From NCBI RefSeq assembly GCF_029867415.1, contig NC_081185.1:36278766-36342765 (forward strand): DNA of 64,000 nucleotides, in the 5' to 3' direction. Source of the DNA: Vicia villosa. Its lineage: Eukaryota; Streptophyta; Magnoliopsida; Fabales; Fabaceae. A program made the position numbers and the translations under genes. Positions 5,442-58,087 of the stretch are shown one piece after another (positions within the stretch are counted from its first letter, which is position 1; every line of letters begins with the position of its first letter). The notes beneath the pieces are model-generated. The model saw only the letters and a program-made list of their open reading frames with translations. It was not told the origin of the DNA and made no database searches.

Positions 5442-6305
5442 TGTCATACCCCAAAATTTGCCCTCTTATATTCAATCAAAGGTTTCTCATTTCATCTCCA
5501 ATAACCAAGGTTCTAAGGTTTTCTCAAGTCACTCTCTCCTATCCAAAACTAGGGTTCTGTATTTTATAAAAGGATTTTGAATCTCCAAGGCCTCAAATAG
5601 ATCTCAAGGTCCCTCATATGTCTCAAGGCACCTCCATGTCAAAAGTCAAGCTTCTATTCCAAGGATTGCTCACTCAATGGCTCAGATGACCAATAATCGA
5701 CTATGTTGACCTAAAAGTCAACTATGGTCAAAGTACAGTCAAACTTCAAGATTTTTGCTCAACATCAAGTAGGTGAGGGTATATCCATCATTTGATCAAA
5801 GGTTGATCATGATCCATTAATAAAAACTCGGAAATGAACAAAGTCAAAGGTTCAAATTAGGGTTTTTAAAGGAAAAGTCAACTCAACTTTGACTGGTCAT
5901 AACTTTCACATGGAGTATCAAATATTTCCCAACCAAAGCCTATTTTGAAGGAAGTTGGATTCTCTACAACGTTGTCTCTCACAAGCCAAGGCCATAAATG
6001 CTTCATTCAAGAGATATGGTACAAAAGATTATAGGCCTTCCAAAAAGTCAACAAAAAACACCTTTTAGGTCAAAGCTCATAACTTGAGCATGGAAGCTTC
6101 AATTGAGGTGAAACCAAAAGGATCATTTAGAGGACACATTAAGCTTTCTAAATTGATCAAAAACACCTCCATAGGGTTAAAATTGACAGAGATACGCATG
6201 GTTGAAGTTGAGCAATTTTCAAGATATGCATGAAACCCTAATTGACCAAAATGTGGCTTTTGGACTAATGGGCCTAGAATTTGTATTTCAAACACATCCA
6301 TGACA

Positions 6306-6325
6306 TATATAAGGGCCTATAAAAC
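6306..6325 (+). promoter_or_regulatory. E1 5' LTR promoter TATA region
   Basis: TATATAA (6306-6312) and CTATAAAA (6318-6325) lie in the context CATATATAAGGGCC. The same sequence is at 17497-17516 in the 3' LTR. It is the only strong TATA-type signal in U3. Confidence 0.7.
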
Positions 6326-7467
6326 CACTCTCATCCTTTTGATATTTTATTTATATTTTATTTGAATTTTATTCATATGAATGCAAAATAAATCAAATAA
6401 AATACAAGATATGTGAATTAAATCATGGGGTTTCCATTTTTAATCATCCAAGGGCCCAAGAAATATCCAAGGAGAGTCCAAATTCGTGGCTCATGGTTAG
6501 GGAGAGAAATTATCCAAAAATAGAAAGAAAATAATATAATTTTTAATAAAAATTATATCTCTCCCATAACATATAATCCAAGCCCATCTCTTTCCCTAAT
6601 TGGAAGCATATATATTCTAAAATATTCATAAGGAGAAGGGGAACGAAATTAAGGACAAATACTAGGGTTACAAACTTGCAAAAAAGAGGAGAAACTAGGG
6701 CAAGGAAGAAATCGTGTGGCAGCCTCTCTCAAGAACTTTGAGGTCATCCATCGTGTTCCTGGGGCAATAATGAGTAATACTAGGTCCCAAAGGATGGCCA
6801 AGATCCCTTGAAACGCCCCTGCTCGAACACTCTTTTAACATATTATTGTTTGAATTCGTTTTCGGTATTGTGTCGTGTTTTAATCCATACTAACATCTCT
6901 ATTGTCTTTCTGAGGATCCATAGAGCAAATTAAGATATTCGCATGGGGCTCATAATGACCGGAACGCGATATGCCATTGGAAGGGTCCAAAGATGAGAAG
7001 CTTTGGATCACATGTTCCAGCCATCTTTAGGACCTGGGAGCACTACTATTGAACTCAGAACATGCTTTTACATAGATCTGAACCCTTAGCGTTAACTATG
7101 ATGAGCGATTTCGTGAAGTAAATGTGTGCAATTTTTTCCTTCGAAAACCTGTCTTTTCCGCAGGTAAAACGGAAGCAAAAGAGGCAAGTAAATCCGCAGG
7201 TATCTGCGGAGAAGATGATGAACAGTGCAAGGAATTCAGACTCGCACGCGTGGCACCGTTGGATAGGGTATTCAGCGCGTTTTCCATTGCCATCATGCGT
7301 GTGAACATGCTACTGGCTGGTCAACAGAAAGCCAGTTCTCTCTCCACTCTGGATTGGCTAGACGCTCACGCTGTGGGACCCACGTCCACTTGGTTTGACT
7401 TTTCCCATCTGTACTATTATTCTATATTTATTTTGTTTAAAGCGTTTTGTTGACAAGTAACAAGGCA

Positions 7468-7526
7468 TGGTACAACTGGAGACTGAAAGGTAGGCGTGTC
7501 TCCATGGTCCTGGGTTCGATCCCCAG
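7468..7526 (+). other. tRNA-like module, E1 5' LTR
   Basis: It contains a perfect T-arm: CTGGG, a seven-base loop TTCGATC, then CCCAG (centred on 7512-7524). The sequence GGGTTCGATCCCC is a good pol III B box. Upstream, TGGAGAC pairs with GTCTCCA. No acceptor stem or anticodon arm can be drawn. It lies about 1.2 kb downstream of the TATA box. Confidence 0.65.
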
Positions 7527-8553
7527 GAATGATAATGATTTTTTAGAAAATATTCAAACGATGATTCTATGCAACGAACCCAACACAAGACTATCACGCC
7601 CCTCACCTTACCACCATCAGATCTTCTACAATCCTGATCTAACGTACAGAAGCTCACCTCTACCATGCACCTTCAGAAGGAAGCCACACTGGATCTTTTC
7701 CAGGTTTTATTTAATTATTTTTGTATTATTTATAATTACATGGTTAATCTTAATTATTTTTAGGTTTTAATTAATTATGTAAATATTTAGGTGATTTCAT
7801 TAGAATTAGGATTAGAATAATTAGGATCTAATTGATATTAGGATTTTTCCCGATTATTTGATTATGTCGATTATTCGTTTTGACTGGTTTAATTAATCTT
7901 AATTATAAATCACAAAAATCCTATAAATGCTATCAACGCATTAGGGTTGCCCAATCCCACTGGCCACTTGGCCAAAGTATTAGGATTTAATTTATTGTTC
8001 GCTTCGATTAAATCAATTGATCGCGGTGGGTAATAATCAATTGTCTTATTAATTAAATTCAAATCAAATATAAATTAAAATAACATTTATTTTGCTAAAT
8101 GGTTTTAACCAAAGCTATTGGTTACGATGATTAGCATATTTCCCTTTATCAAATTCGTTATTATTCGTAATCAAATCTATTGATTATGAGGGATAACGAT
8201 CAAATTAATTACTTAAAGCACACACAGTTGCTATTCGTTATTATTCGTAATCAAATCTATCGATTATAGTGGTTAGCAATCCTCCCTTCAATCCGTTAGC
8301 CATGGTAATCAAACCTATTGATTATCGCAACTAATGGTAACAAATTAAAATCAGGGTTGTACGTCCAAATATTAAAACACACTAAACCACGAAACTACAG
8401 ATTTTCATCTCTTCAATACTGCGATTTTCAAATCTACGACAAGGTAATTCAAAATACCTTTGAACTTCGCATTTCAAAAACTACGATAGGCCATTCAAAA
8501 AGCCTTCAAACCATATGAAATCAAATTCAAAGGCGTACAACCCTGTGCCCGAA

Positions 8554-8839
8554 CTACGTTGACTCTGATTCTCCCTAAGGAGATACGTAGGCACTTGGCA
8601 ACAAGGCGAGTCCCCTTCCCTTAAACCTCCATTCAGTTCAAATCTCACTTTTCGCCCTTTTCATTTCCTTAGCTATTAAACTTGAATATTTAGCCATAAA
8701 ACTGTACCTTAGACTTAAAACCTTAGGAAAGGGTTGAGGGTGCCTAACACCTTCCCTCGACCTGATTATAATAATCTTACCCCGATCTCTTAACTGCGTA
8801 GGGTTTCCTATTCTCCCCGGTAGAATAGGTGGCGACTCT
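8554..8839 (+). promoter_or_regulatory. Structured block at the 3' end of the E1 5' LTR
   Basis: Hairpin 1: CTACGT (8554-8559) pairs with ACGTAG (8585-8590), with an inner TCTCC (8570-8574)/GGAGA (8579-8583). Hairpin 2: GGGTTGAGGG (8731-8740) pairs with CCCTCGACCT (8754-8763) around the loop TGCCTAACACCTT. A third stem, CCTATTC/GAATAGG, directly precedes TGGCGACTCT (8830-8839), which repeats the first ten bases of the primer-binding site. Divergent LTR families in the window keep the same arrangement with compensating stem changes. The function is unknown; 3' processing, packaging or primer-tRNA contact are candidates. Confidence 0.7.
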
Positions 8840-8866
8840 AAAAGTCTAATTTTTATGGCAGGTTGC

Positions 8867-10159
8867 TGTAATTGCAAGCTTCTCAAGCATAATTGGTTTT
8901 GATGAAGACAATATGGACATCAAGATTTCATAAAGGATGTGCAAAAAGTATTTCAAGTTTTAGGCAAGAAACACATCATTTCAAAGTCTTGAAGAAACAA
9001 TAAAGATTCAAGGATCGAGCTAAAACGTCAAAGGTACAAACAATACTCACTTTGACATATAATTGTTCACAAATATATTTTCATGCATATCATAAACATA
9101 CTACAAAGTGTCATCCTTCAAAAGTTCATTTAAAACCTTTTTCAAAGTTAAAATTCAAAATAAAGGTTTTAGGAACCGGGTTGTCCCTATGGAGGAACCG
9201 GTTCCCAGCATTCTACATTTTTAGCATTCTGTGTTTTACTACTAGGAATCGGGTTGTCCCTAGGTGGGAACCGGTTCCTCAGTTCAAAATTTGGATTTTT
9301 CTGCTGTAACGTTCAGCAGGAACCGGGTTGTCCCAGGCAGGAACCGGTTCCTACTGAACCAGTGTGTTTTTCCATTGCATGATTTCATTCAAACGAATTT
9401 ATCTTCTTACCACTAAATCATTGCATTGCTTCATGGAAAAATAACCATTCAAAGAGGTGTTTAACACATTATAAATACTACATCTTTCATAATCATTAAT
9501 CACCTTCTTCATTAACAATTCATAACTTTCATAAATCTTCATCTTTCAATATTTCCAAGTGTTCATCAAATCCTTACTTTCAAGTGAAACTTTCTATACA
9601 CATTTTCATTGAGAAATTCATTCAAAGTTTCATGCATACATTGTGAACACTTATATTCATTTTGAGAATTGTTTATTTGAAGAAGAAGATCAATCCAAGA
9701 TTGATAGTGCTATACAAACTTCATCTAAATCTCTTGTAAAAATTCAAAGAAAATTATTTCCTTACTATCCAGGATTGTTGGAAGTAAGTGGTGTGTTTGA
9801 AGAGGATTGTTCTTCATCCACATTAGTGTTGATTGATCTTAAAGGTGTTAGGAACCTTTGATCACCCTATAGGTTAGATAGTAGGCATAGGCTTGTACAA
9901 TAATTCTAACTATAGTGAAATCTCTTTCGTGTTTGAAAGGGGACTGGAGTACTCTCGGATTGTGAGGGGAACCAGTATATATCGTTGTGTTCTTTATCTT
10001 TTCGCTTTTACCGCTTTCATCACCATTACCAAGAAAAAGATAAAAACCATCAAAAGCCTTCAAACACTTAACCAAAAATCAGTAAAGACTTTCTCATAAA
10101 ACCGATTAATTTTTGAAAACCTAATTCACCCCCCCTCTTAGGCATATCTGATACTTACA
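8867..10159 (+). mobile_element. S1: solo LTR, Copia type
   Basis: A 1293-bp insert begins TGTAATTGC and ends ATACTTACA. It is flanked by the 5-bp duplication GTTGC (8862-8866 and 10160-10164) and has no internal domain, so it is a solo LTR left by LTR-LTR recombination. The TATA box is at 9470 (TATAAATAC). The end, with its CACCCCCCCTCTTAGGC tract, resembles Copia SIRE/Maximus-type LTRs from memory. ORFs inside (for example 9643-9861) are treated as chance. It sits four bases before the end of the E1 5' LTR. Confidence 0.88.
9171..9353 (+). repeat. Triple GGAACCGG palindromic motif in S1 U3
   Basis: Three copies of a roughly 36-bp motif (AGGAACCGGGTTGTCCC, then GGAACCGGTTCC) start near 9171, 9244 and 9318, spaced about 73-74 bp. 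They lie upstream of the TATA box at 9470, where enhancer repeats of LTRs usually sit. Confidence 0.75.
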
Positions 10160-10170
10160 GTTGCTACAGC

Positions 10171-10188
10171 TGGCGACTCTGTTGGGGA
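10171..10188 (+). other. E1 primer-binding site
   Basis: TGGCGACTCTGTTGGGGA begins two bases after the LTR end. It differs at one position from the E2 site (TGGCGACTCTGCTGGGGA). From memory, Ogre elements are primed by a tRNA-Arg and this is their characteristic sequence. Confidence 0.85.
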
Positions 10189-16801: not shown

Positions 16802-19800
16802 TATCATACCCCAAAATTTTCCCTCTTATATTCAATCAAAGGTTTCTCATTTCATCTCCAATAACTCAAGGTTCTAAGGTTTTCTCAAGTCACTCTCTCC
16901 TATCCAAAACTGGGGTTCTGTATTTTATCAAAGGATTTTGAATCTCTAAGGCCTCAAATAGATCTCAAGGTCCCTCATATGTCTCAAGGCACCTCCATGT
17001 CAAAAGTCAAGCTTCTATTCCAAGGATTGCTCACTCAATGGCTCAGATGACCAATAATCGACTATGTTGACCTAAAAGTCAATTATGGTCAAAGTACAGT
17101 CAAACTTCAAGATTTTTGGTCAACATCAAGTAGGTGAGGGTATATCCATCATTTGATCAAAGGTTGATCATGATCCATTAATAAAAACTCAGAAATGAAC
17201 AAAGTCAAAGGTTTAAATTAGGGTTTTTAAAGGAAAAGTCAACTCAACTTTGACTGGTCATAACTTTCACATGGAGTGTCAAAAATTTCCCAACCAAAGC
17301 CTATTTTGAAGGAAATTGGATTCTCTACAACTTTGTCTCTGACAAGCCAAGGCCAGAAATGTTTTATTCAAGAGATACGGTACAAAAGATTATAGGCCTT
17401 CCAAAAAGTCAACAATGGGCATGAAACCCTAATTGACCAAAATGTGGCTTTTGGACTAATGGGTCTAGAATTTGTATTTCAAACACATCCATGACATATA
17501 TAAGGGCCTATAAAACCACTCTCATCCTTTTGATATTTTATTTATATTTTATTTGAATTTTATTCATGTGAAATCAAACAAAATACAAGATATGTGAATT
17601 AAATCATGGGGTTTCCATTCTTAATCATCCAAGGGCCCAAGAAATATCCAAGGAGAGTCCAAATTCGTGGCTCATGGTTAGGGAGAGAAATTATCCAAAA
17701 ATAGAAAGAAAATAATATAATTTTCAATAAAAATTATATCTCTCCCATAACATATAATCCAAGCCCATCTCTTTCGCTAATTGGAAGCATATATATTCTA
17801 AAATATTCATAAGGAGAAGGGGAACGAAATTAAGGACAAATAATAGGGTTACAAACTTGCAAAAAAGAGGAGAAACTAGGGCAAGGAAGAAATCGTGTGG
17901 CAGCCTCTCTCAAGAACTTTGAGGTCATCCATCGTGTTCCCGTGGCAATAATGAGTAATACTAGGTCCCAAAGGATGGCCAAGATCCCTTGAAACGCCCC
18001 TGCTCGAACACTCTTTTAACATATTATTGTTTGAATTCATTTTCGGTATTGTGTCGTGTTTTAATGCATACTAACATCTCTATTGTCTTTCTGAGGTTCC
18101 ATAGAGCAGATTAAGACATTCGCATGGGGCTCATAATGACCGTAACGCGATATGTCATTGGAAGGGTCCAAAGATGAGAAGCTTCGGATCGCATGTTCCA
18201 GCCATCTTTAGGACCTGGGAGCACTACTATTGAACTCAGAACATGCTTTTACATAGATCTGAACCCTTAGCGTTAACTATGATGAGCGATTTCGCGAAGT
18301 ATATGTGTGCAATTTTTTCCTTCGAAAACCTGTCTTTTCCGCAGGTAAAACGGAAGCAAAAGAGGCAAGTAAATCCGCAGGTATCTGCGGAGAAGATGAT
18401 GAACAGTGCAAGGAATACAGACTCACATGCGTGGCACCGTTGGATAGGGTAGTCAACGCGTTTTCCATTGCCATCACGCGTGTGAACATGCTACTGGCTG
18501 GTCAACAGAAAGCCAGTTCTCTCTCCACTCTGGAATGGCCAGACGCTCACGCTGTGGGACCCACGCCCAGTCGGTTTGACTTTTCCCTTCTGTATTATTA
18601 TTCTATATTTATTTTGTTTAAAGCGTTTTGTTGACAAGTAACAAGGCATGGTACAACTGGAGACTGAAAGGTAGGCGTGTCTCCATGGTCCTGGGTTCGA
18701 TCCCCAGGAATGATAATGATATTTTAGAAAATATTCAAACGATGATTCTATGCAACGAACCCAACACAAGACTATCACGCCCCTCACCTTACCACCATCA
18801 GATCTTCTACAATCCTGATCTAATGTACAGAAGCTCACCTCTACCATGCACCTTCAGGAGGAAGCCACACTGGATCTTTTCCAGGTTTTATTTAATTATT
18901 TTTGTATTATTTATAATTACATGGTTAATCTTAATTATTTTTAGGTTTTAATTAATTATGTAAATATTTAGGTGATTTAATTAGAATTATGATTAGAATA
19001 ATTAGGATCTAATTAATATTAGGATTTTTCCCGATTATTTGATTATGTCAATTATTCGATTTGACTGGTTTAATTAATCTTAATTATAAATCACAAAAAT
19101 CCTATAGATGTTATCAACGCATTAGGGTTGCCCAATCCCACTGGCCACTTGGCCAAAGTATTAGGATTTAATTTATTGTTCGTTTCGATTAAATCAATTG
19201 ATCGCGGTGGGGAAAAATCAATTGTCTAATTAATTAAATTGAAATCAAATATAAATTAAAATAACATTTATTTTGCTAAATGGTTTTAACCAAAGCTATT
19301 GGTTACGATGATTAGCATATTTCCCTTTATCAAATTAGTTATTATTCGTAATCAAATCTATTGATTATGAGGGATAACGATCAAATTAATTACTTAAAAC
19401 ACACACAGTTGCTATTCGTAATAATCGAATCTATCAATTATAGTGGTTATCAATCCTCCCTTCAATCCGTTAGCCATGGTAATCAAACCTATTGATTATT
19501 GCAACTAATGGTAACAAATTAAAATCAGGGTTGTACGCCCAAATATTAAAACACACTAAACCACGAAACTACAGATTTTCATCTCTTCAATACTGCGATT
19601 TTCAAATCTACGACAAGGTAATTCAAAATACCTTCGAACTTCGCATTTCAAAAACTACGATAGGCCATTCAAAAAGCCTTCAAACCATATCAAATCAAAT
19701 TCAAAGGCGTACAACACTGTGCCCGAACTACGTTGACTCTGATTCTCCCTAAGGAGATACGTAGGCACTTGGCAACAAGGCGAGTCCTCTTCCCTAAAAC

Positions 19801-20044
19801 CTCCATTCAGTTCAAATCTCACTTTTCGCCCTTTTCATTTCCTTAGCTATTAAACCTGAATATTTAGCCATAAAACTGTACCTTATACTTAAAACCTTAG
19901 GAAAGGGTTGAGGGTGCCTAACACCTTCCCTCGACCTGATTATAATAATCTTACCCCGATCTCTTAACTGCGTAGGGTTTCCTATTCGCCCTGGTAGAAT
20001 AGGTGGCGACTCTAAAAGTCTAATTTTTAGGGCAGGTTGCTACA
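16802..20044 (+). repeat. E1 3' LTR
   Basis: 3243 bp, beginning TATCATACC (TG has become TA) and ending TTGCTACA. It is collinear with the 5' LTR except for a deletion after 17415, where the sequence jumps from AACAA to TGGGCATGAAACC. It contains TATATAA at 17497, the tRNA-like module at 18649-18707 and the structured block at 19728-20013 (hairpin 1 19728-19764, hairpin 2 19905-19937, TGGCGACTCT 20004-20013). Confidence 0.93.
18649..18707 (+). other. tRNA-like module, E1 3' LTR
   Basis: Same as 7468-7526 in the 5' LTR. The T-arm CTGGG-TTCGATC-CCCAG is unchanged although neighbouring sequence differs between the two LTRs. Confidence 0.65.
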
Positions 20045-20049: not shown

Positions 20050-20474
20050 ATTTGAATCCAAGGGTTTAGATACATTCATCTCTGGCTTGTTAACACTCAC
20101 TTGTTTGTTCTTTTACATACATGAGGTGTTTATTGTTAATTGTTTAAGCTTGATGTTTTACCCAAAGGATGGGAATGATATTGACTAAATTGTCAAGGTA
20201 CTCAAATTCTTTTCCAATCTCTTTTATTTTTGTGTCAAGTATTTTAAAAGCTTTTCACTTGTTTATGGTTTAGTATTGTTAAAGCTTAGCCAAAAACCCC
20301 TTTGTTTTGAAACCTTGGTATTAAGAATAGAATTATTCCCGGTGAAACTATTCTTGATCCATTGATCTTGTTTTTAAACCTTGGTGTTAAGAGATGAATT
20401 ATTCCCTGTGAAACTTCTCTTAACCCATTGATCTTGTATTTTAAAGCTTGATCCTTCTTTGATTTGTTTTAAAA

Positions 20475-20810
20475 TTGTTAAGTATTTTAAAGCTTAACCT
20501 TTTAAAGTTATTAGGTATTTTAAAGCCTAGTCCCTTTTATTTGGTAAGTATTTTAAAGCTTAACCCTTTAAACTTATTAGGTATTTTAAACCCTAATCTT
20601 CTTTTAAACTTGTTAAATATTTTAAAGCTTAAACTTTTAAAACTTATTAGGTATTTTAAAGCCCAATCCCTTTTTTAATTTGTTAAGTATTTTAAAGCTT
20701 AACCCTTTAAACTTATTAGGTATTTTAAAGCCTAATCTTCTTTTAAACTTGTTAAGTATTTTAAAGATTAACCCTCTTTTAAGAAAAACTTGTGAGTATT
20801 TTAAAGCTCA
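20475..20810 (+). repeat. GTATTTTAAAGCTTAA tandem array in E0 LTR
   Basis: Alternating half-units TTAAGTATTTTAAAGCTTAA and TTAGGTATTTTAAAGCCTAA give a composite period near 65-70 bp, about five composite units. The half-units are self-complementary (TTAAAGCTTAA). Confidence 0.8.
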
Positions 20811-20867
20811 CACCCCAAAAGATTTTGGCCACTTTGGCCCCCTTTTTCCCTTTTTTAAAAAGAGGAA

Positions 20868-21108
20868 CTACAGAAGCTCTGACTTTCCTATTGCACTTAA
20901 GGGGTATGTAGGCCTAAGATGCGATATCTTATCGAGCTCACTTTTAAAACATTCTTTTCCCATCCCCACATTCTATTTCAAACAAGATTTTCACATAGGT
21001 TTTTCCCAAAAAAAGGTTATTTATATACAAAAGAAAATAACATGAAAACAAAGAGGTTCTCATGGAGTACCATGGATATGAGGGGTGCTTAAAACCTTCC
21101 CCTTGTAT
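20868..21108 (+). promoter_or_regulatory. Structured block in E0 LTR
   Basis: Hairpin 1 has arms CTACA (20868-20872) and TGTAG (20907-20911). Hairpin B has CATGG-AGTA-CCATG (21061-21074). Hairpin 2 has ATATGAGGGG (21076-21085) and CCCCTTGTAT (21099-21108), a ten-base stem with two G-U pairs and the loop TGCTTAAAACCTT. The positions match those in S4, S3, S2 and L1. Confidence 0.7.
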
Positions 21109-25561: not shown

Positions 25562-27305
25562 TGTCATACCCCAAAATTTGCCTTCCATATTCCATGTACA
25601 ATGATTCAAAGTTCAAAGATTCAATCCCAAAGCTTTGCTCAAACAATCCTAAGATCCACAGTCAACTGATCCAATCCTAAAGGCCAACTACAATCAAAGC
25701 ATGATTCAAACCTATGATCATTGGTCAAACATCAAGTGTAGAGGTGCATAATCATCATTTGATCAAAGAAAGATCATGATTCCATTAATAGAAACTCAGA
25801 GATGAACAAATACAAAAAGGTTCAAATTAGGGTTTCTTAGGAGAAAGTCAACCCAACTTTGACTAGGCATAACTTTCACATGGAACATCAAAAATGCCCC
25901 ACTCAAAGCCTATTTTGAAGGAAATTGGATTCTCTACAACTTTGTCTCTCACAAGCCAGGGCTAGAAATGCTTCATTTGAGAGGTACAAGGCAAAAGATT
26001 ACAGGTCATTTTCAGGCATCCCTCAAAAGCAGTTTTTTGTCAAAAGAAGATATGATCAAGATAAAAGCTCCAAATGAAAAATATATTCCAAAGTGGCTTA
26101 TAGGGACCTCTTAAGGTTTCCAAAAAGTCTTAGAACTCCCTCATAGCTTAAAAATTGAGTGAGATATGATTGATCAAAGTTGGGTGATTTTTGAAGACCA
26201 AATGTGAAATAAAGGAGGTCCAAATTTGAAGTTCTTGCAAGTGGGCCTATATTTTATGACTCAAACTTGATCCACAAGCTATCCAAACCATAAGCCACGA
26301 ATTTCACCTTTTATTTTATTTTATATGATTTTTTATTTTATTTAAAAATGATATAAAATGATATAATTGAAGAAAATCAAATATTATGGTAAAAGGGTTC
26401 ATATTGACTATTTCCGATCACAATTATGACAGAATTATAATCTATTTTCGTGGTATATTAATTGGGAAGGAATTGATAGAAGATTTGGACAAAGTTAGAA
26501 AGTTTCCAATCAAATTTTTAATCAAATCTCTCAATATTGCAAGATTGGATTTAAGAGAGATTTTGGAAGTTTTTGTTAACCTAAATTGTTGCCTATAAGT
26601 ACCTAGCATATACCAAACGAAAAGGGGGTTGGAATTTCTGAAAAAAAACGCACCTGCAAGAACGCAAAAAGGTCAAAAAAATCCAGAATTGGTTTGGGAG
26701 AATTAGGGCACTTCAAGAGGTTTTAAGGATTGCAGAAGGTTCATGGGGTCACTCTGAGTCTATCTGGATCGTTGCTCTGCATCAATACCCCCAGATCAAT
26801 CTCCATTTAACCGAGGTAAGTAACTCTGAAACTTGGCTCGATTAGAGTAATTCACGCGGTCTCATGTAGTTCCAATTATATATTGTTTGTACGATTGCTG
26901 TGATCATTCCTGTGCATTTAATTGGATTTCTGGGCGCATTTGATACTGATTGCCATTGTTGATATGATTAGGGTTCTTAAGGCAAATTTGGGGTTTTTCG
27001 CGTAGAAGTAAAATTAGGTTAAATCAAGCATAGGGTTGAATTCGCATGCCTCAGATAAGTGGAAAGGGGATATCGCGAAACATTTTTATGCCCCCATATT
27101 CTATTCGCTATTTTCTGGGTTTTATTGCTACAACAGAATTCGTAGCTAAATCATAGCAAGTTGTTGCAGGCTTTTGTGTCTTCTTGGGGAAGACGATGAG
27201 GTGTCCCCTCATCAGTGGTCCATTTAAAATCCGCGCGCTCTTTTCTGGCTTCTGTATATGTCCTTTATTTAACTTATTAGGCGTGTGGTTTGAACAGAAT
27301 AAACG

Positions 27306-27374
27306 TCTGGTTGGGATGGTAGTGAAGCGCTTAGGTGAGGGGGAGAGTGTGGGTTCGAACCCCACCTCCCACGC
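27306..27374 (+). other. tRNA-like module, E2 5' LTR
   Basis: A perfect T-arm GTGGG-TTCGAAC-CCCAC (27350-27366) includes a consensus B box GGTTCGAACCCC. TGGGA upstream can pair with TCCCA downstream like a short acceptor stem. The A-box-like TGGTAGTGAAGCGCTT lies about 30 bases upstream. It is about 62 nt in all, too short for a cloverleaf with an anticodon arm. Confidence 0.7.
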
Positions 27375-28229
27375 TATTTTTTATTGAAAACCTGGCTTCT
27401 TGTTCCCATATGCACACAATCACATGGTTCACCATGTACCCTCATGATCCAACCATCAGATCACCATCACTCTAGATCTAACGTCCCAGGCCTAATCTAT
27501 ATACCATGAACCTCCAGATTTGCCATACTGAACCAAAACCCTAAATGGACTAAAATAATTTTAATTAATTATTTGTTTTAATTAATCTCTTTTAATATAT
27601 TTATTTATGTATTAATAATTATTTTTGTAAATAAATTAATACATGATAATAATATTAAAATGACAATTTGTTGTTCGTTCCGATTAAATCGATTAATCGC
27701 TATGGTCAACAATAATTTTAATTAAAATGTTTATTTAATTAAAATGCAATTAATTCCTATTTGGTTAAATGGTTTCGACTATCTTATTAGTCGCGATGAT
27801 TAACCTTTCTATTTTCCATACTTCAATTCATTATTCTTTTTAATCGAATCAATCGATTACGAGGGGTAATGATACAAATTAATTATCAAAAATTATAAAA
27901 AAATACTATTATTCGTTATTAGTAATAATCAAATCAATTGATTAAAATTGGTAACGATACAACTACTAATCTGTTAACTATGATAATTGAATCAATCGAT
28001 CGTTGCGGTTAATAGTGCTAAATCAAATCAGGGTTGTACGCCCATATCCTAAAACACTCAAATACACTAAAACCACATTACTATTGATTTTCATCCCTTC
28101 AAACATTGCAATGTTCATAACTACGATAAGGTAATTCAAAATACCTTCGAACATTCGCATTTCAAAACAACTCCAAAACGATTTCAAACCACAAATTCAA
28201 ATTCTAAGGCGTACAACCCTGTCCCCGAA

Positions 28230-28265
28230 CTACGTTGACTCTGATTCTCCATAAGAGATACGTAG
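28230..28265 (+). promoter_or_regulatory. Hairpin 1 of the structured block, E2 5' LTR
   Basis: CTACGT (28230-28235) pairs with ACGTAG (28260-28265), and inner TCTC (28246-28249) with GAGA (28255-28258). The inner stem is one pair shorter on both sides than in E1. The remaining parts of the block are displaced by S2 to 32639-32745. Confidence 0.7.
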
Positions 28266-28342
28266 GCACTTGGATAACCAAGGCGAGTCCCCCTCCCTAA
28301 AATCTCAATTTTCCCCTGTCGCACGCTCGCGAAATGATGATC

Positions 28343-28677
28343 AGAGTCGCCACCAATATATTTATCCCAAGGAGGGAAAGGAATATCAGAAAACCTAAGA
28401 TGAATAAGAATGAGGTCTTTCGACCAGAGATAGGGTACGGGAGTCGGTTACGCAAGGGGAAGGTACTAGCACCCCTTACGCCCATCGTACTCGATGGTAT
28501 CCACCTATGTTTGTTGCTATCTAAAGGGTGTATAAATCTAAAGCTTAATTACTAAGGGAATGCATGCAAATGAAAGAAGAAGAAACACGGGGGAAATAAG
28601 GTTTATAAATAGTTGTGCTCGCTTAGGCCCCGCGACCTAATGCCTACGTATCCTTTTCAGGAATCAGAGCGCCGTAG
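28343..28677 (-). promoter_or_regulatory. Structured block in S2 (minus strand)
   Basis: In plus coordinates, hairpin 1 has CTACG 28644-28648 and CGTAG 28673-28677; hairpin B has CCATCG 28482-28487 and CGATGG 28492-28497 around AGTA (sense strand); hairpin 2 has 28450-28459 with 28472-28481; a GGTC-GAAA-GACC hairpin lies near 28416-28427; TGGCGACTCT (sense) is at 28343-28352. The order is the same as in the plus-strand LTRs. Confidence 0.7.
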
Positions 28678-30940
28678 TTCGGCTCTTTAGTTTTTGTTTG
28701 TTTTTGTGTTTTTTAGTGGACGAAGTTACATTCGCACTCCGCTGCTCGACCTCTGGAGTCTTAAGCTAGGAATGGAGCGGAAATAACGTGTCCGATTAAG
28801 AGGAAGAATGCCCTGAAAGCAAGAGAAAGAATGCCTCGGAGGCAAGAGAGAGAAGAGAGAAAATTGGTTTGTGTCTTTTAGGTGTAATTCCATGATGGAC
28901 GAAAACCCACTACAAGGCTTCGCATCACTTCCTTACTTTGTTTAAGTCTGAGCCTTTATTAAGTGTTTTGAGATGTTTTTGGTTAAGTGTCTTTTAAGGG
29001 AAATTAATTTGTGACTTGAATCATGCCTTAAAAGAGTTTTTTTTTGAATATTTAGAGAACGCACATCGAGGCCTACGCCACAATCGTTTCTATAAATAGT
29101 GAAGTTTTTTGAATAATTAGAGAATGCACATCGAGGCCTACGCCACAATCGTTTCTCTAAATAACGGTTAAGAAATACACCGAGGCCTACGCCTCAATCA
29201 TTTCTCTTCCGCTAAGTGGGAAAGAACATACATCGGGGCCTACGCCCCAATCATTTCTTTCACACTAAAAAAAAGGCATTAGCATGATCCGCGTCGTCCT
29301 TTATTAATGTTTTAAAGTTGAAAAGAAAAAGGAGAAGAAAACTAGCCTAAAATGAATAACTAGCTTAAGTGTTATGAATATTATAGGTCCTAAATCTATG
29401 GGAACACACAAGTGAAACCACAATTACAAGTAAAAATTACAAGTAAACAATGGTACAAAATTAGTACAAAAGCATGACTTGAAAATATAGCACCAAACAT
29501 GAAAACAAATGATTCACAATATGGTACAAAATGAATTAAAAGATACTATTTATTTTTATGATTTTTATAGGAGAAATTGAATTACAACTCAAGTAAAGAC
29601 TAAAACAAATAGCCTAAAACTACTATTTTTGTGATTATTCTTTTTATGTCAAAAATATTGTATTAAAGTCTAAAATGGTAGGAAAAAAATTAGTTCTTTA
29701 TTGCCTAAAAAAAATTGTGAGAAATTTCTAAGTAAAAACCAAATTTCACTAATTAGAACCTAGAGTCAGGGGGTGTAAAAATGTAAATGATGGGGCATAT
29801 AGCAAAGGGCGCAGGGCCCAAAGAAATGGCCCCAAACAGATTTTTGTTATAGTTCTTTATAAGCAAAAAAGATGGTGACGGGCCCAGGGGTGTGCATTCA
29901 GTAACTTCGGCCCAAGAGTATTGGTTTGATCCATACGATTATTAATATCTAATTAACCTCAATTTAATCATTATGTCAATCTCTAATTATATCCATTAAT
30001 TCAATTAAGACTAATTAATACTAATTAAACCAATTAAGCACAATTAATCATAAAAATTAATTAACAAGAAAAGAAAAGAGGAATAGGGTTAAATGCGACG
30101 ATTCAACTTCTCTCTTACTCAGACTCTCTCGTCTCACACTTCGCCGGAAATCGCTCCGCCGCGCCGGAGGCGGCGGAGTTTGCCCAAACCTCATAATGTA
30201 CACCTCACCTTGCTCGTCTCTCCACTCTCCTTTCAATTCTCAGCCTTAAATTCATAGACCTAGATTTAATCTCTCTGAATCCATACGAAAACCCTAGGTC
30301 TAAGAAGAAGTGCAATTAAGCCTTCACGATTAACAATCAAGGAGCGCGATCGTGGGGGAAGTGCTCAGGCAACTTAATACTACGCCATAGCATCAAGAAA
30401 CAGCAAGAGATGGATGGAGGAGTCGATTCGAAGACTTACCTGGGTGACGAAGATGGCAGAAATCGTTGAGGAAGATCGGAAGGGGAGAATACGTGTGCTT
30501 GAATCGCGAAATAAACGCAGTTGAGAGGAGATGTTGATTCAGGTAACTTCGAATCCTCGCTTGTATTTAACTTTCTTCTTCTTCCCTGGTCTTGATGTAA
30601 TTCTGAGATTGTTGCGTTAGGTCGTTATGCATTGTTGGGTGATGACGAGAGTTGTAAGGAGAGTATGAAGATGATTGAATATGGAGATTCAGAGAGGGTG
30701 CGTGAGGCTATGCTTCACCTCTTTCAGAGCTTGATCAATGCTCTGAAGAGGTTGATGGAGAAGCTTTGAGTGTAGGGAATGGAACTGAGAGTGATTGAAG
30801 ATGAATGGTGTGTGTCGAGGGAAGAGATGAAAAAGAGAGGATTGAAGGTGATGACAGGTTGAAGATGAGAAAATGGTGGAGAAAATGGTCAAGGGATTGA
30901 GGAGTTGTGTAGAAGAACCTGAACAATGGTGGAGCACCAG

Positions 30941-30947
30941 TTATATA
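30941..30947 (-). promoter_or_regulatory. S2 LTR TATA box (minus strand)
   Basis: CTCTATATAA is read on the minus strand, about 1.6 kb from the LTR start, similar to the relative position in E0 and S4. Confidence 0.6.
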
Positions 30948-32776
30948 GAGTTTGCAGGTTCAGTTCTCCTTCTCTTTTTTTCTTGAAATTCAGTTATCAA
31001 TAATTGGTTATGCTGTTAGGTTTTTGTTGTCAATCTCTAACCGAATCTGTTAGTTGTTAGATATAAGTTTGGAAAAGTTAGTTTTTGACAGTTAGAAAAC
31101 TGTTATAAGTCAGTTATGAAATTGTTTGGGTGGTTACTAGTTCTGTTAGAGTTTGTAACTGAATCGGTTATAGGTTGTTATAATTTTGTTAAGAATCAGT
31201 CAGCATGATTGGTTAGGAAGGTTTAGAGTGGTAGGGACTGATTTAGAAATAGATTGGAGGTTAGGAATAGTGAGGGGGATGGTTGAAAATCTGTTTAAAT
31301 AATTTTATCAATGTAAATAAATCTGTCGGTGTAAGATAGCTATTGGTTAAAAGAATGGATGCTGGGTTTTTGTACATGTATAAACTTGGAAGGTGTTAAG
31401 CTAGGTTAGTTTATGTGGATGATAAGATGAAAACAACCTACTGTCTTGTATTTGTGAGCTTGATGTTAGTTCTGAACAGGCTTTGGGGGACTGTTTGTGG
31501 GAATTTTTTACAGGTACAGAATTTTTGTTTATGTAGGCATATCCAGATTGGTGATTAAAATAGAACTGTTAGAGATCGATAGGGGATTTGTTTTGTGACT
31601 GGTTTTTGTTAATATTTGAATATGGAAGGTTTGAATGTGTATGCTATGTTGAATGTGTATGGTATATGGCTGATGATAGTAGAGCTTATTTTATGCAGGT
31701 GATATGTCGTGATGCGTGATTGATACAAGTTTGGTTGTCATGATATGGCGTGACTTGAAGTTTATGGTGCCAATGGGAATGAAGTCCTGAAGATATGAAA
31801 CGAACTTGAGGAGGAATAGATATAGATCTTAGGGTTAGTGTAAAGTAAGGATGAAGTGGTATTGGACAAATATTGTTTTGGTTTAAAATTGTATGGAGTT
31901 TGGTATTTTCCAATGCATGTCAAGCGCAAGGCTACAGTTTTCTTTTTTTGACAGTGGCTCTTGAAATTGTAATGAGCAAACTGAACTTCCTTTTATCTCT
32001 TTAAATATGAAACTTCTTTTTTCCTTTTCAATGTGCAAATCCTGAATGAAGAAAACCCAATTGGAATGATAACCAGAGATATGGGTCAACATGACTTTAG
32101 TCGAAAGTCAACCTCACGGTTGACTTTAACTAAAAGTCAAAGTCTTTGCAATTTAGTCAAAGTCTTTGCAAATAGCTTCCAGAGGCCTTCTCTCACCAAT
32201 ATGCATCAATAACCAAAAGGTGCTTATGAATTTCTTTCTTTTGAAACAAACACCATAATAATCTCAATCTCTAAAAGGCTTGTCATAGGTTAGCATTTTC
32301 ATCCGAATGAATTCGTTCAGTACTGTACCGTAATTTATGATTCAAGTAGGACACTAGACAATCACACGTCCAAATTCCAAAAGAAAGAACCCATTGGTTA
32401 ACAAATGAATAGTGAAATAAAACCCTGATTCAATTGATGCCTTTTGATCCATCGCCACTGATTTAATGAACCAATATTATTCTTAATGAATGCATGATGT
32501 GTTAATGACCTAGTAGATGAGAATATGAGATGCATAGGCCAATTAAGAATAATTAGATGGGCAAATTTTGGGGTGCAACATCCCCTACTCAATATTTTAG
32601 CCATAAACCTTCACCTTAGATTCAAAGCCAATAGGAAAGGGTTGAGGGTGCCTAACACCTTCCCTCGACCTGAATATAGTATCTTACCCTGATCTCTTAA
32701 CTGCGTAGGTTTCCTATTCGCCTTGGTAGAATAGGTGGCGACTCTAATCTTTATTTTTAGGGCAGGTTGCTACAGC

Positions 32777-32794
32777 TGGCGACTCTGCTGGGGA
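32777..32794 (+). other. E2 primer-binding site
   Basis: TGGCGACTCTGCTGGGGA begins two bases after the 5' LTR end. It is the typical Ogre site, complementary to a tRNA-Arg 3' end from memory of the family. Confidence 0.9.
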
Positions 32795-33646
32795 TAACTT
32801 AAATGGTGAATACTATGCTCCTATAGGTTTTAGGTTTTGGCAGGGTTTAGGTTTGACAACTTTTTAGGGTTTGGCTAATTCACCTTTTTTAGGGTTTGTA
32901 ATTATTTTATTTTATTTTTTTAAAAAAAATTTTATTTGTTTTTTATCTAAAAATATTTAATTGTTTATAATATGTTTATATTTAATTGTTTATGTTAATA
33001 TATTTATATTTAATTGCCTAATTGTCATATTTTTATATGCACTGCTGACATATTATGTAATGTTAAAACCCTAAGTGTGGGAGTTAACTTTGAGATCAAT
33101 AGGGGAGCATGAATCGCCTACGAGTCTCATTGATAACTCCACTCGGAGTGGGTTGAATATTCGGAAATGTCCAAAACGAGGCTTGACTTTGTTGAGGGTA
33201 GGACGGGATATTTGGCTGATCTCTCCTGGAACCTACCCCAAAAATTCGAACCTCATGGATAAAATGAGTTGTTCTAAAATCCGAAGAGGCTACGAACGAC
33301 CCCATGAGACCTTCTAGAACCCCCCTATAATAAGGTTGGCTCCCAAGAGCCGCTACGTCGGACCTATGAACCTATGTGATTACGTGCTATATGTATATAT
33401 ATGTGTTGATCATTTTTTTATTATTTCTTTTTACATTCATCATACATCAGGGGCATTCTTGCATCATATCTTATTCAAAAAAAAAGAAGGAAAAAAAAGA
33501 TATCATACATATCATGCATGGCATACACATCATTTTTATGACATTGAGAGAAGATTCCTCTTCTATCTCCAGAACAGGGGACCATTGGGAAGGATAACCT
33601 AACATCCCGACCATATTATCCAACAAGATTTCAGCAAAAGAAATCA
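32795..33646 (+). other. E2 leader
   Basis: It is untranslated sequence between the primer-binding site and gag. The block at 33060-33330 is conserved with E1 (about 10700-10990). The E1 145-bp array is absent. A short A-rich run is at 33475-33500. Confidence 0.7.
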
Positions 33647-35164
33647 ATGGATCAGCTAGAACAGAATCAAGCCGCCCTTCGTGAGGAAGTGGATCGACTG
33701 AAGGTTAGTATGGAGGAAGTTAAAGGAGGTATGACTCAGATGCTAGGATTCATGAAGGCCCTCCTGGATAAACAAGAAAAAGCAAAAGAGGTTCAGTCTA
33801 GGGATACCCTGGTTCAGGATGAGATCCCCAACGACGAAAACCCGCCGCTAGGATTGGTTTTAGGCGTTGGCCCGGCTAAGGACAAACCTCAGGCCCGCTC
33901 TGTTAGGAGAGCTATCCAATTCCAAGAGAAAGGAGAAACTTCCCAAGAAGGATTTGTCCCCACTCTACAAATGAAAGGGACAACCCGCACAGTTCGCATT
34001 CCTGCTGACAATGTCCCTAAGGACGAAGATTACCTGGACCAACAATACGGAGTACAAGAGGTGGACGATACAAACCAAGCACCTCAGACGCAACAGTCTA
34101 ATCCCGACTCGAGGGAAGACTCCAAGGATAGTGAACAAATCAAGGCGCTGGAAGAGAGACTAAAAGTGGTAGAAGGATACGATGCCTTCGATGTGGATGC
34201 CTTCGAAATGAGTTTGGTCTCAGACTTGACTATCCCTCGCAAATTCAAGATTCCCGATTTCGAGAAATACAAAGGACTCACATGTCCGAGGAATCACTTG
34301 CGCATGTATGTGCGGAAAATGGATGCCTACGCCCACGATCAAAAGCTAATGATACATTTCTTTCAAGAAAGCTTAAGCGGAGCGTCCATTGACTGGTACA
34401 TGCAATTAGAGAAGTCTTCTGTCCGAAGCTGGAATGATCTGGCTAACACATTCTTGAAGCAGTACAAGTACAACTTGGACATGGCACCCAATCGGATGCA
34501 ATTACAAAACATGTCACAAAAGAAGGATGAATCATTCAAGGAGTATGCCCAAAGGTGGAGGGAAATGGCTTCTCGAGTCCAACCTCCCTTAATGGAAAAG
34601 GAACTAGTGGACATATTTATGAGCACTTTGCAAGGACCGTACTACGACAAGATGGTCGGAAGCATATCTTCAGGGTTCTCGGACTTGATAGTCATTGGTG
34701 AGAGAATTGAAGATGGAATCAAAAATGGGAAGATACAAGGGGCACCCTCAGGTTCCTATCACACAAAGAAGTCATATGACGGAAAAAAGGAACCCAACAC
34801 CGTTGGAGCAATCCTGGTTAATCAGACACCAACACTACAACAGAAGGATCAGCAAAAACAACAGGGTGGCCAACGCCCCTGGAGGTCCAAGCCAAAACGA
34901 TCGTTTACCCCATTGCACATGCCGCTGTCTCAAGCTCTGCAACATCTGCTCAGTCAGAACTTGATAACTCTGCTGCCTCCATACTCAGCTCCAGCTAACC
35001 CCACTCCCGGGTACAAGCATCATGCTAGATGCGCTTATCATTCAGACAGTCCTGGTCATGATACAGAGGATTGTGGGCCATTGAAGCACAAGATACAAGA
35101 TTTAATTGAAGAAGGGCTCATTGAGTTCGAAGATCCTAGCAAGTCTAAAGCCATAAGTGGCTAG
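33647..35164 (+). CDS. gag: Ogre-type gag protein, intact
   Basis: 505 residues without interruption. Residues 1-50 form a likely coiled coil (heptads around LREEVDRLKVSMEEV), useful for Gag multimerisation. Residues 140-165 are acidic and variable. The retrotransposon gag core lies at about 195-360 (IPRKFKIPDFEKYKG, then SGASIDWY, SWNDLANTFLKQYKYN and FKEYAQRWREMASRVQPPL). Near the end is a Cys/His cluster, CAYHSDSPGHDTEDC (C-x2-H-x5-H-x4-C), typical of Tat/Ogre Gag in place of the usual knuckle. It should form cytoplasmic particles that package element RNA. The first in-frame ATG is used, 850 bases after the primer-binding site. In autonomous relatives, protease follows; here the frame ends at a stop and non-coding sequence follows. 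Confidence 0.92.
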   Translation: MDQLEQNQAALREEVDRLKVSMEEVKGGMTQMLGFMKALLDKQEKAKEVQSRDTLVQDEIPNDENPPLGLVLGVGPAKDKPQARSVRRAIQFQEKGETSQEGFVPTLQMKGTTRTVRIPADNVPKDEDYLDQQYGVQEVDDTNQAPQTQQSNPDSREDSKDSEQIKALEERLKVVEGYDAFDVDAFEMSLVSDLTIPRKFKIPDFEKYKGLTCPRNHLRMYVRKMDAYAHDQKLMIHFFQESLSGASIDWYMQLEKSSVRSWNDLANTFLKQYKYNLDMAPNRMQLQNMSQKKDESFKEYAQRWREMASRVQPPLMEKELVDIFMSTLQGPYYDKMVGSISSGFSDLIVIGERIEDGIKNGKIQGAPSGSYHTKKSYDGKKEPNTVGAILVNQTPTLQQKDQQKQQGGQRPWRSKPKRSFTPLHMPLSQALQHLLSQNLITLLPPYSAPANPTPGYKHHARCAYHSDSPGHDTEDCGPLKHKIQDLIEEGLIEFEDPSKSKAISG

Positions 35165-37779: not shown

Positions 37780-38640
37780 GAATTTCTTACCTCTCCAGGT
37801 AGTCTTGTCCAAGACAATTATCCTAATCTTTCCAAGCAGTCTTGTGTAAGACGTATCCTGACCTTTTCTAGGTAGTTTTGTTTAAAACTTCCCACGACCT
37901 TTATAGGAACCTTTCTAGGTAGTTCTGTTTAAAACATCTTATGTCCTTTATAGGAACCTTTCTAGGTAGTTTTGTTTAAAACATATTGTTCCCTTTATAG
38001 GAACCTTTCTAGGTAGTTTTGTTTAAAACGTTTCATGTCCTCTATAGGAACCTTTCTAGGTAGTTTTGTTTAAAACGTTTTATGTCCTTTATAGGAACCT
38101 TTCTAGGTAGTTTTGTTTAAAACGTCTTATGTCCTTTATAGGAACCTTTCTAGGTAGTTTTGTTTAAAACGTCTTATGTCCTTTATAGGAACCTTTCTAG
38201 GTAGTTTTGTTTAAAACATATCGTGTCCTTTATAGGAATCTTTCTAGATAGTTTTGTTTAAAACGTATCGTTCCCTTTATAGGAACCTCTCTAGGTAAGT
38301 CTTGTTTAAGATATCCCGTATCCTATCTAAGAGCCTTTCCAGGTGAGTCCTGTTTAAGACGTACCATAACCTGTCTAGGTATTCCTGTTCAAGACGTTTC
38401 ACATCTTTTTAGGAGCCTTTCTAGGTGAGTCTTATTTAAGACATATCATGCCTTTCTAGGTAGCCTTCTTAAAATGTTTATCCATTCTTTTCTAAGACAC
38501 ACTTAGTTCTTTTAAAGAACTCCTCAGTTAGTCTTCTCCAGGACATTCTTCCTAAGCATTGTTCAAAGCCTAAGCTTATTCGCATCATCCTTTGTTATAC
38601 TCTATTCAGGAACCTCTTCAGGTGGTCTTATGTAAGACAT
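37780..38640 (+). repeat. 47-bp tandem hairpin array (E2 3' UTR)
   Basis: The regular core (about 37860-38300) has about ten 47-bp units, consensus GGAACCTTTCTAGGTAGTTT followed by TGTTTAAAACGT. The arms are GTTTT/AAAAC around GTTT. Flanking units have GTCTT/AAGAC (37803, 37839, 38299, 38427, 38626), so a C-G pair is exchanged for T-A. It is the same family as E1 14660-15182. Confidence 0.88.
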
Positions 38641-47726: not shown

Positions 47727-47870
47727 CCATGGAAAACCATGGATGCAAAGGGTGCCTTACACCTTCCCTTTGCATAATTACCCCCCGAACTCAGTTTCTT
47801 TTAAAAAGGTCTTTTCCTGTTCTTTTAGCCTTTCTGATATTTGGATAAAATAAAAGTCGGTGGCGACTCT
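47727..47870 (+). promoter_or_regulatory. Structured block in S3
   Basis: Hairpin B: CCATGG (47727-47732), AAAA, CCATGG (47737-47742). Directly adjoining hairpin 2: ATGCAAAGGG (47743-47752) with CCCTTTGCAT (47766-47775), a perfect ten-base stem around TGCCTTACACCTT. TGGCGACTCT follows at 47861-47870. Hairpin 1 was not recognised in this family. Confidence 0.72.
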
Positions 47871-57810: not shown

Positions 57811-57834
57811 AATTTCCCTAGTTAGTTCCCCGAA

Positions 57835-58087
57835 CTACATTAAGCTCTGACTTCCACTAGGGATATGTAGGCATGAGGTTCACAAGGAATCTCAGCGAGC
57901 TAATAAAATACCAAAAATAATCAGTCTGTCTATCTGTCTGTCTTTCTTTAATCAAATCAATTCCTTCTCCTAACACAAAGGAGAAACTTTCCCAATCATT
58001 AGCAGCAAACACAATCACAAATGACACAGAGAAGGTTCCTGTAGAGTACTACAGATATGTAGGGTGTTTAAACACTTCCCTATGTAT
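57835..58087 (+). promoter_or_regulatory. Structured block in S4
   Basis: Hairpin 1: CTACAT (57835-57840) with ATGTAG (57865-57870). Hairpin B: CTGTAG-AGTA-CTACAG (58039-58054). Hairpin 2 adjoins: ATATGTAGGG (58055-58064) with CCCTATGTAT (58078-58087), ten pairs including two G-U, loop TGTTTAAACACTT. TGGCGACTCT was not found after it. Confidence 0.72.

Follow-up and report, generated by a model that had tools for sequence, protein, structure and literature searches.

Ogre-type LTRs in the window

The window, meaning the whole stretch of 64,000 nucleotides of Vicia villosa DNA analyzed in this study, contains Ogre-type LTRs on both strands. Those designated E1, E2, S3, S4, and E0 lie on the plus strand, and S2 and S5 lie on the minus strand. 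The LTRs of E1, E2, and S2 and the primer binding site of E2 are as follows.

About 5442-8867 and about 16804-20044, plus strand: LTRs of E1 (the 3′ LTR is about 3.2 kb)
About 25562-28316 plus 32581-32774, plus strand: 5′ LTR of E2
About 38842-41790, plus strand: 3′ LTR of E2
28317-32580, minus strand: solo LTR S2 (about 4.26 kb), inserted in the 5′ LTR of E2
32777-32794, plus strand: primer binding site of E2, perfectly complementary to the 18 nucleotides at the 3′ end of a tRNA-Arg(ACG) of this genome (L193)

Ogre/Tat elements have very long LTRs, and Ogre elements have a primer site complementary to tRNA-Arg. The lengths of S2 and of the E1 3′ LTR agree with the former trait, and the E2 primer site agrees with the latter. 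Two of the five candidate tRNA places that were fetched are tRNA genes; L190 was not called a tRNA by ARAGORN. A Gag domain as in Ty3/gypsy elements (Retrotrans_gag, PF03732, E-value 5.5e-14) was found in the E2 ORF at 33548-35161, which is the sole stop-to-stop frame of at least 250 amino acids; the gag evidence comes from E2. In the available part of one paper, an aRH domain is described as marking the Tat clade (PMC6317226). The borders of the S2 insertion show an apparent TCCCC duplication. In E1, about 1.3 kb of other sequence (8868-10170) lies between the end of the 5′ LTR and the primer site at 10171. There is also a 47-bp tandem repeat array in the internal region of E2 (37813-38344), and short tandem repeats occupy 20464-20806, immediately upstream of the E0 block described below.

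Two structured modules near the 3′ end of the LTRs

A preliminary description of the sequence had placed a block of three covarying hairpins (hairpin 1, or HP1; hairpin B; and hairpin 2, or HP2) at 8554-8839 and at the corresponding places of the other LTRs. Two structured modules are indeed present near the 3′ end of the Ogre-type LTRs, and the structure is larger than first reported. Module 1 consists of HP1 (helices P1 and P2), the hairpin P3 after it, and a pseudoknot between the HP1 loop and the strand right after P3. Module 2 consists of hairpin B abutting HP2. P3 and the pseudoknot had been missed in the preliminary description and are new here. The copies of module 1 in the window are as follows.

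8554-8590, plus strand: HP1 of the E1 5′ LTR, with P1 at 8554-8558/8586-8590 (CTACG/CGTAG) and P2 at 8571-8574/8579-8582 (CTCC/GGAG)
8594-8605, plus strand: P3 of the E1 5′ LTR (CTTG/CAAG), 3 nucleotides after P1
8561-8565 with 8608-8612, plus strand: pseudoknot of the E1 5′ LTR, GACTC of the HP1 loop with GAGTC located 2 nucleotides after P3
19725-19786, plus strand: module 1 of the E1 3′ LTR
20865-20938, plus strand: module 1 of E0 (P3 TAAG/CTTA, pseudoknot AGCTC/GAGCT)
28227-28289, plus strand: module 1 of the E2 5′ LTR, parted from its own HP2 by the S2 insertion
41512-41574, plus strand: module 1 of the E2 3′ LTR
57832-57901, plus strand: module 1 of S4 (P3 TGAG/CTCA, pseudoknot AGCTC/GAGCT)
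28616-28680, minus strand: module 1 of the solo LTR S2 (P3 TTAG/CTAA, pseudoknot GCTC/GAGC, 4 bp)
62958-63022, minus strand: module 1 of S5

The hairpins of module 2, together with one further possible hairpin, are as follows.

8731-8763, plus strand: HP2 of the E1 5′ LTR, with arms at 8731-8740/8754-8763 and a 13-nucleotide loop at 8741-8753
19905-19937, plus strand: HP2 of the E1 3′ LTR
21060-21075 and 21076-21108, plus strand: hairpin B and HP2 of E0
32639-32671, plus strand: HP2 of the E2 5′ LTR
41655-41687, plus strand: HP2 of the E2 3′ LTR
47727-47742 and 47743-47775, plus strand: hairpin B (AAAA loop) and HP2 of S3
58039-58054 and 58055-58087, plus strand: hairpin B and HP2 of S4
28482-28497 and 28450-28481, minus strand: hairpin B and HP2 of S2
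62836-62851 and 62804-62835, minus strand: hairpin B (5/6 pairs) and HP2 of S5
8807-8829, plus strand: HP3, a possible hairpin (CCTATTC/GAATAGG) that immediately precedes the PBS-like motif described below

When the window copies were checked, the arms and loops of HP2 were found at the places given for them in E1/E2, S3, S4, E0, and S2, and the change of the HP1 arms from CTACG(T)/(A)CGTAG to CTACA(T)/(A)TGTAG was also confirmed. Some points had to be corrected. Hairpin B lies directly before HP2 in S3, S4, E0, S2, and S5, but it is absent from E1 and E2 and thus does not occur within 8554-8839; the hairpin B arms CGTTG/CGACG belong to S5. The HP2 loop TGYYTAAMACCTT had been given for every family, but the loop is TGCCTTACACCTT in S3, TGTTTAAACACTT in S4, the 12-nucleotide TGCTAGTACCTT in S2, and TGCTAACACCTT in S5. 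No module 1 was seen by reading in S3 (47300-47726). HP1-like words occur in the LTRs of other dicots.

The pseudoknot has the general form of GAGNN after P3 pairing with NNCTC inside the HP1 loop. The spacers between P1 and P3 (3 nucleotides) and between P3 and the pseudoknot strand (2 nucleotides) are the same in all six window copies, whose arms were set by hand, and this fixed spacing rule fits 68 of 74 copies from the genome. The arms of HP2 differ and yet remain paired: the six arm sets form 60 of 60 pairs, while permuted arms form 50.3 on average. Only two of 720 permutations reach 60, the second of them being due to a 3′ arm common to S2 and S5. The cognate arms of hairpin B form 29 of 30 pairs (permutation mean 24.4; 2 of 120 reach this). 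With one copy per lineage, the cognate arms of P3 form 16 of 16 pairs, and only one of 24 permutations does so; the cognate strands of the pseudoknot form 19 of 20 pairs (reached by 2 of 24 permutations) and those of P1 form 20 of 20 (reached by 4 of 24).

The case for the structure does not rest on folding energy. The energy of the whole block is ordinary (z from −1.64 to 0.01 over eight blocks), and local values are moderate, with a mean z of −1.4 for module 1 alone and of −2.91 (sense) and −2.32 (antisense) for module 2. HP2 is in the minimum free energy fold of all eight blocks, hairpin B in three of the five blocks having it (S4, S2, and S3, not E0 or S5), and P1 only in the three E blocks, not in S4, S2, S5, or E0. 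The window has 94 ten-base stems with loops of 11 to 14 nucleotides (both strands, nested registers counted apart), whereas 20 shuffled sequences had 44.7 on average and 70 at most. Such stems are frequent in this AT-rich sequence, and a hairpin alone therefore proves nothing. Simple chance as the origin of the hairpins is ruled out by the covariation, the fixed place beside conserved words, and the strand bias.

Covariation of the helices

In an alignment of nine window rows (seven distinct), 99% of 100 cells pair, and both sides have changed in 8 of 16 pairs. The covariation score is 0.589, compared with 0.254 for shuffled alignments (0 of 500 reach the observed score) and 0.03-0.143 for slid registers. 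Is this also the case in the rest of the genome? The sample consists of 108 loci of the assembly (2.03 Gb, 1888 contigs), of which eight are from a search with E1 (two being the window's own) and 100 lie within the initial 8 Mb of contig C1. I used a tree of 67 distinct copies having both modules and a null in which each column was simulated separately with its own number of changes. All copies in the tree and the alignment come from one genome, and the tree was built from the same region as the tested structure.

Among 2016 column pairs, the ten highest corrected G scores all belong to proposed pairs. Double changes that keep pairing numbered 16 for HP2 (null mean 1.05), 13 for P3 (0.52), 12 for hairpin B (0.43), 3 for the pseudoknot (0.15), and 2 for P1 (0.15). 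For every helix, none of 200 simulations reached the observed count, and slid registers gave 0 or 1. The number of null pairs expected per alignment (120 simulations) was 0.0 for the first pair of P3, 0.017 for the second pair of P3 and for the fifth pair of B, 0.31 for the seventh pair of HP2, 0.73 for the fifth pair of P1, 0.92 for the third pair of HP2, 1.1 and 1.35 for two further pairs of B, and 1.8 for the sixth pair of HP2. The other variable pairs have at least 5.7, and the pseudoknot pairs (8.9, 20.5, and 117.5) are weak one by one; only three pairs are significant singly at 0.05. In summary, double changes exceed the tree-preserving null in every helix (with a null of my own rather than R-scape, and with 67 copies from one genome), and the paired changes are not confined to a few copies but are found across many families of the sampled genome. 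These results support the earlier suggestion of a selected RNA structure in R/U5 of the Ogre-type LTRs.

Module 1 was parsed by a fixed rule blind to the pairing of P3. The 41 distinct module 1 sequences (91 occurrences, including the window) gave 22 arm combinations. Six of 74 distinct, loosely matched copies were left unparsed, namely L089 and five in which the CGAG word or P3 is altered. P1 pairs 1 to 4 and much of the pseudoknot core were fixed by the search patterns, so that P1 pairs 1 to 4 prove nothing; P1 pair 5 is G-C, A-T, or G-U and is paired in all 67 rows of the genome sample. P3 is paired in 265 of 268 cells of the 67-row alignment, with the arms CTTG/CAAG, CAAG/CTTG, TGAG/CTCA, TTAG/CTAA, CAAA/TTTG, TAAG/CTTA, TTCG/CGAA, TCAA/TTGA, and TAGA/TCTA. 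The badly pairing combinations are those of L079 (2/4) and L090 (3/4). Of ten more strings, hand-picked among the matches listed, eight have seven or eight contiguous P3 pairs from the base, and the other two have one and none.

HP2 has 35 distinct arm pairs in the genome sample. Four were set aside (two chance matches, one cut by the locus end, and the shifted copy L078 with 3/7 paired). Outside the GGG/CCC core, 24 of the remaining 31 pair in 7/7 positions, four in 6/7, and three in 5/7 (the L052/L059 type, L045, and L075). Hairpin B was masked as absent, having fewer than four pairs, in 29 of the 67 rows. In L092, the otherwise invariant HP2 core GGG/CCC reads GAG/CTC, being changed on both sides.

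The pseudoknot is likely to be real but is not proven. Its outermost pair is missing in 15 of the 67 rows. L089 and its subfamily carry changes in both strands of the core (GTTC/GAAC). In the assembly, this double change (TTC...CGAA) was matched 271+300 times on the two strands (control 11+5). Of about 100 of these matches listed, 10 are unrelated sequence, and nearly all the others belong to one S2-like subfamily and are often paired 10-20 kb apart. The single change TTC...GCGAG has 57+60 matches (control 0), a few of those listed not being module 1, and the single change CTC...GCGAA has 100+115 (control 0+1), of which about 45 of about 100 matches listed are immediately preceded by an intact GCGAG and therefore do not represent mutants. 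Thus, single changes are rarer than double changes and are scattered over many families; the counts are not strictly alike, since the patterns differ (CGAA versus GCGA plus one letter). The excess of double over single changes suggests that the re-paired state is the amplified one. This amplified state is mainly one event, and one copy among those listed (C2:48756856) looks independent.

Strand of selection

A G-U combination here is a pair in the sense RNA only. In the outer seven pairs of HP2, the 31 distinct arm pairs (217 cells) have 170 Watson-Crick pairs, 37 G-U, no A-C, and 10 other combinations. The presence of 37 G-U with no A-C indicates that the sense RNA of HP2 is selected. HP2 therefore has a largely conserved loop on a stem that covaries in the sense RNA. 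No G-U bias was found in hairpin B (4 G-U, 3 A-C), P3 (4, 3), or the pseudoknot (1, 3). Over all helices and 67 rows, there are 106 G-U and 20 A-C, and 14 of those A-C are in the outer pseudoknot pair of one lineage.

Copy number and linkage of the modules

The module 1 pattern has 34,998 matches in the 2.03-Gb assembly (17419+17579 on the two strands) and the reversed control has none; the HP2 core has 30,052 (15024+15028; control 0), and the pattern from hairpin B to HP2 has 15142+15446 (control 71+91). An exact HP2 core lies within 360 nucleotides of 74 of 78 distinct module 1 stretches, indicating that the modules travel together. The four stretches without it are the copy interrupted by S2, a copy with a loop change (L099), one with a G-U core change (L103), and the GAG/CTC copy (L092). 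In the viral and genome contig collections searched outside the assembly, the exact patterns had no match; the only plant genome covered by these searches was that of the window itself. A relaxed pattern found 14 stretches in viral contigs and 66 in genome contigs; 79 of these 80 have no CTAC within 16 nucleotides upstream, no HP2 core within 400 nucleotides, and no TGGCGACTC within 500 nucleotides, and the remaining one (L165) has neither CTAC nor an HP2 core.

Of 32 S3-like copies, seven have module 1, 18 have a different hairpin instead, and seven have neither. Thus, module 1 is replaceable and in part dispensable while hairpin B and HP2 are retained; most of this sample was itself collected through HP2. 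The arms of the replacement hairpin, seen at 47646-47675 and in the S3-like loci L009, L030, L032, L053, and L056, covary as well (TGG...GCTC/GAGC...CCA versus AGA...GCTT/AAGC...TCT, with one intermediate).

Position relative to the primer site

HP2 ends 105-260 nucleotides upstream of the tRNA-Arg primer site in all 27 copies in which the site was found, and module 1 starts 171-293 nucleotides upstream of the HP2 core in 17 of these 27 (search reach, 330 nucleotides). E1, S3, and S2 each have TATA candidates at a distance of about 2.55-2.7 kb before the end of the LTR, together with other TATA-like words. Since the TATA candidates are some 2.5 kb upstream of the LTR end and the primer site follows the modules within 105-260 nucleotides, the modules probably lie in the R/U5 leader. 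This placement fits the earlier assignment to R/U5, the exact R/U5 border aside. The block could also be present at the 3′ end of the RNA.

A PBS-like motif, GGTGGCGACTCT, was found inside the LTRs at the following places; ten of its nucleotides (TGGCGACTCT) are identical to the start of the tRNA-Arg primer site.

8828-8839, 20002-20013, 32734-32745, 41750-41761, and 47859-47870, plus strand: PBS-like motif
28343-28354, minus strand: PBS-like motif

S5 has AGTGGCGACTC. In the form GGTGGCGACT, the motif is present in 23 of the 27 copies with a known primer site and absent in the other four, which are of the S4 and L059 types. In L012 and L062, the U5 word and the primer site both read ...GACTT. 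The motif was rejected as a universal part of the structure because of its absence in S4-type and L059-type copies and its alteration in L011 and L055. The arms of the possible hairpin HP3 are nearly constant in E-type copies and weak or missing in other families. Complementarity does not support an additional contact between the HP2 loop and the primer tRNA body: for six loops, the best exact complementary matches with tRNA-Arg are 3-6 bp, and between 64 and 500 of 500 shuffled loops did as well. Within one family, the primer site is TGGCGACTTCAC in one of L059 and L068 and TGGCGACTCTGC in the other, and L073 and L084 likewise have TGGCGACTCCAC or TGGCGACTCTGC. This looks as though a change from one tRNA-Arg isoacceptor to another as the primer is easy.

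Possible functions of the modules

The LTR thus contains two covarying modules a short distance upstream of the tRNA-Arg primer site, the pseudoknot part being likely rather than proven. On balance, they probably form an RNA structure that acts in cis in the full-length Ogre transcript, serving as a leader element for packaging or dimerization or for the start of reverse transcription. A leader role is suggested by the place, the strand, the conserved loop on a changing stem, and the persistence through amplification. The very high copy number, as well as the finding in this genome of a tRNA-Arg whose 3′ end is complementary to the primer site, also speaks for it, while the loss or replacement of module 1 in most S3-like copies speaks against it. 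In the R/U5 leader of the genomic RNA, the modules would act as a recognition platform, with the conserved HP2 loop and the pseudoknotted module as likely contacts for Gag or a host protein. Such a platform might mark the full-length RNA for packaging or dimerization, and it might set up the adjacent primer site for reverse transcription. More tentatively, this may be a packaging-and-priming signal of the Ogre/Tat lineage as a whole, that is, a lineage-wide RNA class in which the pseudoknotted module and two stacked hairpins are accompanied, in most families, by the second, partial primer-site copy in U5 (GGTGGCGACT), which would be able to bind the 3′ end of tRNA-Arg and to stage or switch its annealing.

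A nuclear export or splicing-control element, letting unspliced genomic RNA leave the nucleus as the MTE does for MusD, seems unlikely. In the available text of two papers, Ogre RNA has an intron and is partly spliced (PMC12786077, PMC3735527), and the MTE is described as a structured export element with a pseudoknot and a kissing loop (PMC12786077), so that the pseudoknotted module is what an export element could look like. Nothing here ties the block to export, however, and export does not need the consistent closeness to the primer site. Also unlikely, at a slightly lower rank, is a 3′-end element, that is, a block in R acting in poly(A) site choice or RNA stability. The block is also near the end of the 3′ LTR, GGATAAA-like words follow HP2 in the S2, S5, and S3 types, and a plant LTR retrotransposon with a structured 3′ element, the ENE of Evade, is described in the available part of PMC12501189. 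However, the stems, as read by eye, have no long U-rich internal loops like those of the ENE, and no Rfam match was found. A translation element for internal entry or shunting could be imagined in a leader that is apparently as long as the TATA candidates of E1, S2, and S3 indicate, but it is improbable, as the block lies before the primer site with more leader after it and nothing specific points to translation. DNA-level palindromes (for integration, chromatin, or small-RNA sources) are very improbable: the antisense folds of module 2 are also fairly stable and B, P3, and the pseudoknot lack a G-U bias, but neither a DNA palindrome nor an antisense RNA would tolerate G-U and exclude A-C as HP2 does, and the pseudoknot interleaves with HP1.

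Comparison with known systems

In retroviruses and yeast Ty elements, leader structures choosing, dimerizing, and priming the genomic RNA are well studied. Retrozymes carry a hammerhead ribozyme in the LTR, BARE of barley is a copia element, and MusD is a mouse element. Rfam gave no match reaching a gathering threshold in the window and only sub-threshold ones in the E1 and S2 blocks, and no hammerhead was among these hits. The following comparisons refer to the available parts of the cited papers. Ty1 resembles the present case in that its RNA, also that of an LTR retrotransposon, forms a pseudoknot and hairpins close to the primer site, and disruption of its 5′ pseudoknot or leader interferes with retrotransposition (PMC4974528). 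A role of that pseudoknot in packaging could not be shown (PMC4974528), which counts against the leader reading, Ty1 being the nearest analogue. The Ty1 pseudoknot joins the 5′ end of R to sequence downstream of the primer site (PMC4974528), whereas the pseudoknot found in Ogre is upstream of the site and local to module 1.

Ty3, a Ty3/gypsy relative, has structured leader cis-elements with a bipartite primer site and a palindromic dimerization site; unlike Ogre, it is primed by tRNAiMet, its primer site is divided between the two ends of the RNA, and no matching hairpins were found in that text (PMC11381356). Packaging signals are spoken of for BARE, but no covariation-supported fold is given there (PMC3735527). 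The ENE of Evade, a poly(A)-triplex element, is likewise a structured cis-RNA of plant LTR retrotransposons, but it lies in the 3′ UTR, and its stem has U-rich internal loops (PMC12501189). No such loops were found here by eye or with Rfam, and the L052/L059 type has two U-U mismatches in HP2. The MTE of MusD is alike by description only, as a pseudoknot in a retrotransposon element (PMC12786077).

No description of the present structure was found in the open-licence literature, including the available parts of PMC6317226, PMC3601003, PMC4974528, PMC11381356, PMC3735527, PMC10578108, PMC12501189, PMC12786077, and PMC5407846, nor was an earlier covariation-supported leader structure in plant LTR retrotransposons found there. 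Literal sequence words of the structure gave literature matches that, among those listed, look off topic by title. As the available text of PMC5407846 states, the Ogre lineage can exceed half of some legume genomes. Here, a covariation-supported structure, probably in the leader, has tens of thousands of copies in a single genome. It provides short, exactly defined targets for structure probing and binding assays, and the structural signature could be used to annotate Ogre LTRs despite their fast-changing sequence.
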